Positions 25,430 through 44,774 of a DNA stretch of 64,000 nt are shown here, piece by piece. A program made the position numbers and the translations under genes. Below the pieces are notes generated by a model. The model saw only the letters and a program-made list of their open reading frames with translations. It made no database searches and was not told the DNA's origin. Origin of the DNA: Norana najaformis (lineage: Eukaryota; Annelida; Clitellata; Crassiclitellata; Hormogastridae); the NCBI GenBank assembly GCA_964023275.1, contig OZ029921.1, forward strand, positions 9,043,306-9,107,305, written 5' to 3'. Numbering within the stretch: position 1 is the stretch's first letter; every line of letters begins with the position of its first letter.

Positions 25430-25960
25430 GCTAACAGGGAAACGTCATTGATTATGGAAACTTCCGCTGTTATATTGATTGGGGAAAATGGGAGGAAGAG
25501 AGAAAAAGATAAGATTTCTTAGATTTTATTAATGCCAGCTTTATACAGCAACATGTCATGGAACCCACTAGGAGGGAGGGAATAACGTTTTGGACTTAGT
25601 GATTACATCTGATGAAAATATGGTAGAGAGATGGGGGATGGAGGAGCACTTTAGTACTAGTGATCATCAGGTAGTCAGATGGGATTTAGCTATGGAGCAG
25701 ATCCAGAAAGTCAGATCTTACAAGGAAAGACCCAATTTCTTCTAAGCAGACTGTGAATTAGGAAAATGTTGAAGGAAATGTATTTGGCTGGTAGAATTAA
25801 ACGTATGAGAGTGAAAGAGGCATGGACAAATTTGACAGAAGTCATGAGAAAGATTACTGAAAAAACATACCTAAAAAAAGAACCATTAAGGAGAGGCAAT
25901 GGGTAACCCGAGAGTTTTAAAAAGAGAAGGGCAAACAGCAAAGCATGGAAAGAATTTCAC
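25430..25960 (+). pseudogene. second LINE endonuclease-to-linker fragment, decayed
   Basis: The translation includes FLDFINASFIQQHVMEPTRR near 25525, LDLVITSDENMVE near 25593, and a STSDHQVVRWDL segment near 25652-25690. These are the C-terminal endonuclease blocks of CR1-type LINEs (DFxNDxFxxQHV..PTR, LDLVLTSE, SDHxxV). A region like YLKKEPLRRG then WVTREFKK near 25870-25920 matches the linker that precedes the reverse transcriptase. It breaks off at about 25960, where unrelated sequence leading to the transposase-like gene begins. Confidence 0.65.
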
Positions 25961-28430
25961 TGGCCAACAGAAAAATTTTTTTTTCTTGTTGCCTTCGGTT
26001 TTAGACCTGTTCTTGGGGTAATTTTGGGCGCTGATTCAGAAAATGTCATTGGATTGAGTGCATCAGGTCTAGTTTCTGAGATATCGTCGATTTTGTAAAG
26101 AAAACCCAGTCCACTCTTTAAATGATGTCTTTGGCAAAACTAAAATGTCATAATAAGCTTTATTTATGGCTAATTATAATTCTTGCTGATTCATATAATG
26201 CCTACATCCTTATAATGTAAAATCAGCATATCTTGCCGCGTGCTGAGATATTGCTGATTCAACGAAATAACTATTCCGTAGCCTACAGCTTACTCAGCAC
26301 TAAATTCATGGCCTCATTTAGAATTTATTTGTGCTTATACAGCGTTTCATGGTTTCGAACTATGTAAATAGATTATGCTGAAGTCAGCATTTATAGCCTG
26401 TATAAACCGCCTCCTGAAAGCTAGAGCAGCCGCAGTCGTCTTAGGGCATATTAAGAGTTGGTCGCAAGAACAATCTGTGAATGTGAGCATTAAATAACTA
26501 CATGTTCTTACTATTTTTTATGTTAGTCATTTAATTCCTCAGATGCGAACATCCTTAAGGTTATGGCTACTTCCAGACGGAGCTGCATTAACCATCCAGA
26601 CATATTCTGCTACATTTGTGGGGAATACACACTAAAAGCAAACAGGAAACCGATTTCTGAGTTTGTAAAAAGAGCATATGTAGGTTATTTTGGTGTCAAA
26701 CTTGGAGATCAAGATAAGCAATGGGCTCCTCATACAGTATGCAAAACTTGTATTGAACAATTGCGCCACTGGACAATTGGAAAGAGAAGCTGCCTGAAAT
26801 TTGGTGTACTGATGGTTTGGAGGGAACAGATAAACCACTTCGACGACTGTTACTTTTGTATGGTTAATATCATAGGCATCAATCGAAATAATCGTCACAA
26901 GTTGTCTTACCCTGATATACCTTCAGCCAGGAGACCTGTTCCACATTCGGATATTGTACCAGTTCTACCTTTTCGCGAACTACCTCAGCTCTCAGACGAT
27001 GAGACTTGCATGTCCAATATCGGACAAGATGACGAAAGTGAAGAAAGTGGGGGCAGTGATTTCCAGTCAACTTCACACAGTGAACGTTTTGACCAAAAAG
27101 AGTTGAGTGATCTGATCAGGGACTTAAATCTTTCCAAAGAGTCCTCTGAATTGCTTGCGTCCAGACTAAAGGAAAAGAATGCACTTCAGCCTGGAACGAA
27201 AATTGCAATTTATAGAAACAGAGAAAAGGATTTGCTGCCATTCTTTACCGAAGACAACAACCTAGTATTCTGTAATGACATCAGCAACTTATTGAAGAAA
27301 ATTGGTCTGTCGGATTACAGCCCAGATGAGTGGCGTCTTTTTATCGACAGTTCAAAACGTAGTCTGAAATGTGTGCTTTTAAATAACGGCAACAAATTTG
27401 GTTCTATTCCAATCGGTCACTCCACCAGGATGAAAGAAGAGTACAATGCCATCTCTTTAGTACTGGAAAAGATAAAATACAAAGAACATCAATGGGTAAT
27501 TTGTGTAGACTTGAAGATGGTAAATTTCCTCCTTGGTCAACAAAGTGGCTACACAAAGTATCCCTGCTTTTTGTGTCTTTGGGACAGTAGAGCCAAGCAT
27601 GAACATTGGACAAGAAAAGATTGGCCTTCGAGGAAAGACATGGTGGTTGGAGCTCAAAATGTAATCAAGGAATCTTTGGTGGCACGAGATAGGATCATAC
27701 TGCCACCACTACACATAAAGCTAGGCCTGATGAAACAATTTGTCAGGGCTTTGAATAAAGAAGGTTCATGCTTCGAATACATAGTACACAAGTTACCAGG
27801 AATTACAATGGTCCACAGATCAGGCAACTTATGAATGACCCACTTTTCATACCATCAATGAATGAAATCGAATCTTGTGCCTGGTCTTCCTTTGTTCTTG
27901 TAACTAAAAATTTTCTTGGCAACAAGAAGGCAGACAATTATGCACAACTAGTAGAGGATATGCTTCTTCATTTCAACAAGCTTGGCTGCAACATGAGCAT
28001 TAAAGTCCATTATCTCCACAGTCACTTAGATCGCTTTCCAGAGAATCTTGGTGACTTCAGCGAAGAGCAAGGTGAAAGATTTCGCCAAGACATCAAAACA
28101 ATGGAAAATCGATATCAAGGAAGATGGGATGCACACATGATGGCAGACTATTGCTGGAATATTAAGAATTTTCAGAGGATTAAAGAAGGAAGCAAAAACT
28201 GGACTGGACCATGAGAATATTGTAAAACGTAATAAATTCAGAATAAAGTTTGTGAATAAAAGGAATATCAGCAATAAAGCAACCAAGAAGGCAATAGAAA
28301 CTTTTTGCCAGAAGTTGTCAAGGAATGTTAAGGAGGACAGCTGGAGTTTTAATAACTATATCTGAAGCAGGCAAAATCAGAAAGAGTAGTTAGGCCCATT
28401 GAAAAAGGATGAGGGAATGTAATGTAATGT
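25961..28430 (+). mobile_element. putative DNA transposon carrying a zinc-finger/DDE-like gene
   Basis: The interval starts where the LINE fragment stops (after cactgg at about 25955) with ccaacagaaaaatttttttt, has about 600 bp of AT-rich leader, then an intronless 1.65-kb gene and about 200 bp of 3' flank. I found no convincing inverted terminal repeats or target duplication by eye, so both limits are guesses. A self-contained intronless gene set into a decayed LINE, in DNA otherwise made of repeats, argues for a mobile element. A retrocopy is not excluded. Confidence 0.45.
26563..28214 (+). pseudogene. zinc-finger DDE-transposase-like protein, one frameshift lesion
   Basis: A 423-codon frame (26563-27834) is continued by a second frame (homologous from about 27810 to 28214). 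The N-terminus has paired cysteines: C16xxC19 and C60xxC63, spaced like a ZAD-type zinc domain, then C96xxC99. An acidic linker (about 145-175) follows. The core has a hydrophobic-Asp block LFIDSS (D262), a second VICVDLKM (D316), a CFLC pair (335/338), and LPPLHIKLG (H384). The second frame has NEIESCAW and then LGCNMSIKVHYLHSHL and FRQDIK. Asp, Asp, CxxC, His and a late Glu in this order recall eukaryotic DDE transposases, but that is inference. From memory, close relatives recur as uncharacterised multi-copy proteins in invertebrate genomes. Frames meet between 27784 and 27810, with residues apparently lost. The long stop-free frame marks it as much younger than neighbouring repeats. Confidence 0.7.
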
Positions 28431-44215: not shown

Positions 44216-44774
44216 TTCCTGAGTCATCCAGTGATATCTTTATATTGATTTCTCAATTTATTAACTCCGCCACTGCCTTGTTTGGGGGCAGTGCCAGTCC
44301 CAAGCCTGGATAAAGGAGGAGGGTGACGGCAACGGCCTTTGATGCCATAAGCTGTTGTTAAACTGAGGAACTACTACTCTCAATTTATTCGCTCTAAATG
44401 TAGTTAAATATAGATTATGTAGTTTCCCTTTAATAACTAGTTTTAATTTTCGATTTGGCTTTAGTTGCTGTAGTAGCATCTGAGGTGGTAAACTATGCAC
44501 AAGGTAGACTTTCATTGCAAAAGTCACTACATTAATAAAAACAGTGACCAAGAACTTATAATCAACAGAGAGAGAAATATTTTTTTACATTTGTGGGAAC
44601 ATCTGATTACAAATAAAACATTAGTGCATAAAGAAGTTGAGACAGAGAGAGATCTAAAGTGATGTCCTGCATCATTTGACCTCGTTAACATGAAAGATTA
44701 AGCATGACTACATGGTAACTGTGAGGTCTTTTATTCTGCCAACCTGCTGGGAACTCCCTTTAATGACTTGCTGG

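Follow-up and report, generated by a model that had tools for sequence, protein, structure and literature searches.

A defective transposon copy in Norana najaformis very probably belongs to the Chapaev3 group and to an abundant, recently active family

The question raised by this locus is what kind of gene lies at positions 26563..28214 of the window (the whole stretch of DNA analysed, 64 kb in length), where a first-pass annotation had placed an almost intact gene of a mobile element that would fit no superfamily. Our analysis indicates that it is very probably a defunct copy of a cut-and-paste transposon of the Chapaev3 type, an assignment made through the published description of the group and not by comparison with reference proteins, because the ends, the target site and the motifs fit that description. 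In the accessible part of PMC4079192, Chapaev3 elements have CAC/GTG termini and 3-bp TWA duplications between A and T, and their mostly single-exon transposases carry C(2)C, LH and H(4)H motifs. Since the group is already named and described there, neither the absence of a fitting superfamily nor the status of an under-described system, both suggested earlier, can be upheld.

The two overlapping open frames are as they had been described (26527-27834, encoding 435 aa with a Met at 26563, and 27759-28214), but the gene that they make up is defective: the element, which starts upstream of it at 25958, carries two deletions and has no right end (Table 1). Compared with full-length copies, 6 bp are deleted near 27052 and 28 bp near 27808, the latter causing a frameshift, and homology stops after 28164; the element sequence past position 2241 is missing and the right end TGTTGGCCAGTG, the partner of CACTGGCCAACA, is absent. 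The sequence retained is 97.6% identical to the full-length copy L015. The deletions together with the loss of the right end would have inactivated this copy. Beyond the truncation point, the flanking DNA that closes the second open frame resembles a decayed LINE by eye. The 8-bp direct repeat at the two junctions has the junction as its sole basis, because a search for the empty site allowing up to three mismatches gave 0 matches, and it is weak as a target duplication because two-ended copies reach equally long repeats. Further pieces of this family (family A) or of the related family B were not found elsewhere in the 64-kb window. A separate feature of the window is a type-P1 twister ribozyme (RF03160) at 44258-44326 (+), with a score of 69.5 bits (gathering score, 67.2), which is the sole gathering-level Rfam match in the 64 kb.

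Table 1. Features of the transposon copy and its junctions, in window coordinates
Feature	Position	Strand	Remark
Truncated family A element, very probably Chapaev3-type	25958..28164	+	Positions 1-2241 of 2625
Left terminal inverted repeat CACTGGCCAACA	25958..25969	+	
8-bp direct repeat AAGAATTT, left copy	25950..25957	+	Junction; candidate target duplication, weak
8-bp direct repeat AAGAATTT, right copy	28164..28171	+	Junction; at truncation point
Transposase, first frame	26563..27810	+	Residues 1-418 of 567-aa protein
Transposase, second frame	27804..28163	+	After 28-bp deletion; residues 426-545
Last ~17 residues of second open frame	28165..28214	+	Flanking DNA, outside element
N-terminal Cys-rich domain, candidate Chapa domain	26608..26859	+	C16xxC19, C60xxC63, C96xxC99
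Putative catalytic Asp no. 1	27346..27348	+	D264 of intact protein (262 in window copy)
Putative catalytic Asp no. 2	27508..27510	+	D318 of intact protein (316 in window copy)
CFLC, C(2)C motif	27565..27576	+	C337 and C340
PPLH, LH motif	27703..27714	+	H386
HYLHSH, H(4)H motif	28008..28025	+	H494 and H499
Candidate third catalytic acid	28065..28076	+	Either E513 or E516

The genome searched comprises 608 Mb in 17 contigs, with a TTAGGG array at one of the eight contig ends sampled. A DNA search for family A scored 40 of 940 candidates, at 96-100% identity, and 20 of these 40, a batch chosen by score, were fetched with flanks; both 12-bp termini (CACTGGCCAACA...TGTTGGCCAGTG) are present at 15 of the 20 loci. 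The 15 two-ended copies diverge by 0-0.64% from the column majority, and two of them (L012 and L013) are identical in sequence at separate places in the genome. Their 567-569-aa frame is complete in five and broken in eight of the 13 copies assessed, the start string being absent in the other two. At the protein level, 77 of 6422 candidates were scored, of which 72 are uninterrupted and five have one stop; these are the best-scoring matches, so that uninterrupted frames make up a smaller part of the full set of copies. One motif variant gave 1467 exact matches in the genome and its backwards control 0, a count outside which the window copy falls through a different codon at the motif, and 98 of 100 motif-match places among the matches listed belong to family A as judged by eye. 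The gene is more than a chance open frame, given the multitude of near-identical copies in the genome. Coding changes across 40 loci (39 elements) are mixed and carry no claim about selection (seen once: 82 N, 43 S and five stop; seen twice: 22 N and one S; seen at least three times: four N and one S). The genome itself therefore yielded full-length copies, terminal repeats and target duplications, and not a single-copy orthologue: family A is an abundant and recently active cut-and-paste element.

Termini of the CAC/GTG type are found in family A and in family B. Among the 15 two-ended copies of the first sample, 13 are flanked by an exact 3-bp duplication, and nine lie in an A-TWA-T site. 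The second sample consisted of the first 20 motif-match places on contig 1, corresponding to 19 elements (L045 and L046 overlap), and was unselected for completeness, though the motif is present in every member; both ends occur in 12 elements, with a 3-bp duplication in 9/12 and A-TWA-T in 6/12, read by eye from the printed flanks. Pooling both samples gives 22 of 27 two-ended copies with the 3-bp duplication, five without a clean one and 15 of 27 in A-TWA-T. Genome-wide, ATWA directly precedes 524 of the 731 exact left ends, against roughly 2% expected (a rough estimate from base composition). A-TWA-T is thus a strong preference here, whereas the published Chapaev3 account, in its accessible part, says always (PMC4079192). 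Two structural observations were made along the way: L045/L046 is one element in which positions 1720-1838 occur once more internally, and L049 and L050 (contig C1, at ~4.03 and 4.08 Mb) have the left flank in common and differ in their right flanks, which suggests recombination or flank duplication.

One end is missing from six of the 19 elements of the second sample. Clean direct repeats lie at both junctions of L038 (9 bp), L042 (13 bp) and L046 (31 bp), and the same pattern was seen with the first batch, chosen by score, in L018 (33 bp), L020 (57 bp, 55 matching), L022 (17 bp), L026 (39 bp) and the window copy (8 bp), so that the seven clean one-ended cases besides the window copy have repeats of 9-57 bp. 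The long repeats of L044 and L051 were left out of the count as both sit in tandem repeats. L035 has lost one end and shows no duplication, with a right-end piece inverted directly before its left end, and L041 lacks only about 4 bp. By the same scan, the longest repeat at two-ended copies is 8 bp in the first batch (L010) and at most 5 bp among L033-L052, which were scanned with a slightly changed score, and this puts the repeats of L038 and the window copy close to background. Some flanking repeats take in a few element bases of microhomology. Read by eye, the kept end lies at A-TWA-T in four of eight copies (L018, L038, L042, L046) and at another site in the other four (L020, L022, L026 and the window copy). 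It is possible, though on balance doubtful, that Chapaev3 transposition often gives one-ended products with target repeats longer than 3 bp, either by one-ended insertion through a RAG1-like transposase or because gap repair after excision, using the empty homologue as a second template, was aborted; the data do not tell these two routes apart. PMC8277862 discusses how gaps are filled and templates switched at TIR transposons of animals. Within the portions of the literature covered by our search, no account of one-ended, long-repeat copies was recognised for Chapaev, which is no proof of absence.

The intact transposase is encoded by an uninterrupted single-exon frame of 567 aa. The CxxC pairs, Asp262, Asp316, CFLC and LPPLHIKLG were all found where the first-pass annotation had put them; D264 and D318 are numbered 262 and 316 in the window copy because two residues are missing there. 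Alignment of four full-length proteins (one of family A, two of family B and one of family H) shows D264, D318, the CFLC motif with C337 and C340, L385-H386, E513 and the six N-terminal cysteines to be invariant; a second alignment leaves out all of L064 and the middle part of L069, both misaligned in the first. H494 and H499 are present in P0003 and L068, and single family B copies are altered (L066 at H494; P0005 at H499 and E516). By analogy with relatives, D264, D318 and either E513 or E516 would form the catalytic triad, and the cysteines may bind zinc. The N-terminal Cys-rich domain has a weak zf-AD match (E 0.002, below the Pfam cut-off) in P0003 only, and a Chapa zinc finger is placed at the Chapaev3 N-terminus in the accessible part of PMC4411706, which draws Chapaev3 as a clade within the Transib superfamily.

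An AlphaFold model of middling quality (mean pLDDT 56, pTM 0.43) places D264 and D318 on RNase H-type strands, with pLDDT below 50 at residues 330-369 (including C(2)C) and 490-521 (including H(4)H and the two candidate Glu residues); an earlier model built from one sequence (pLDDT 33.7) was set aside. The best structural matches, RNase H-like as the first-pass annotation had anticipated, are Transib, RAG1 and ProtoRAG (HzTransib, BbRAGL) over residues ~177-562 at 8-13% identity, and the transposase is predicted to have a Transib/RAG1-like, RNase H-type fold. RAG1 is the recombinase underlying antibody diversity.

This genome contains three or more related families whose genes are uninterrupted. 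In family B, for which 150 of 4567 candidates were scored, the termini CACTGGATCACA...TGTGATCCAGTG are present in both copies read at both ends (L066 and L067, 98% alike). Their duplications are TAA and TTA and their frames run uninterrupted for 564 aa, and family H has an uninterrupted frame of 563 aa. Families C and D, and decayed copies found singly, match A or H piecewise at about 29-71% identity.

Termini starting with CACTG and a 3-bp duplication would also suit EnSpm/CACTA elements of animals, in which CACT-type ends go with a short duplication. This identity is nevertheless very unlikely, as the A-TWA-T preference combined with C(2)C, LH and H(4)H is the Chapaev3 description, and Pfam searches with three proteins gave no significant family, the CACTA and Harbinger transposase families being absent up to E 10 under HMMER filters that discard weak matches. 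The Pfam outcome, the failure of phmmer and a profile search to find any relative in PDB by sequence, and a Foldseek search of PDB and viral models with no significant match (best E 0.42) might instead speak for an unnamed superfamily convergent on TWA targets and CAC ends; we consider this highly improbable, given that the termini, the target site, the motifs and the best structural matches jointly point to one named group. The viral, prokaryote and phage collections held no relative of the transposase either, pattern matches there being judged non-relatives and two viral contigs matching by sequence being put down to chance. As for a transposase-derived host gene, the long frame and the kept N-terminal cysteines are what one might expect, but the abundance of one exact motif variant, near-identical copies at many places with intact termini and duplications, and the frameshifted, truncated state of the window copy leave it next to no probability. 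The near-identical copies, termini, target duplications and predicted fold bear out the earlier view of a mobile element with a DDE-type Cys-rich transposase, and Chapaev3 remains the very probable assignment.

For such a Chapaev3-type element, the 567-aa transposase would bind the element ends, probably via its N-terminal Cys-rich domain, as relatives suggest. An RNase H-fold DDE core with Transib/RAG1-style CxxC and HxxxxH would then cut at the CAC/GTG termini, with chemistry like that of relatives, and the cut ends would be joined to A^TWA^T targets with a 3-bp stagger, giving the TWA duplication. A previously unplaced gene is thereby placed as Chapaev3-type, with a structural link to Transib/RAG1, and the genome offers a good eukaryotic system for studying transposition of the RAG1-like kind and the aberrant products that it leaves.

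The RAG1 core carries CxxC and HxxxxH spacing, and the family described here has in common with Transib, RAG1 and ProtoRAG both its structural matches and CxxC plus HxxxxH in the catalytic core. It differs from RAG1/ProtoRAG in that intact copies such as L014 and L015 show no further long frame that could encode a RAG2-like partner (coding strand, frames of at least 100 aa), and Transib proper was rejected since the target duplication of Transib is 5 bp and here 3-bp TWA. A 3-bp duplication and CACT-type ends are in common with EnSpm/CACTA, and a 3-bp duplication and the TWA target, the target of Harbinger elements, with PIF/Harbinger; in contrast to both, the motif set and best structural matches here are Transib/Chapaev-like, and PIF/Harbinger identity was rejected. 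The accessible part of PMC3630058 merely lists Chapaev3 fragments in a fly. Compared by description only, the family is either new or a copy of a listed Chapaev3 family. In the accessible part of PMC4079192, Merrow, Garfield and Conan have in common with it the CAC/GTG ends, the TWA duplication, the three motifs and, in most families, the single exon, and Garfield_BM (2289 bp, 556 aa) is similar in size to the 2625 bp and 567 aa found here.
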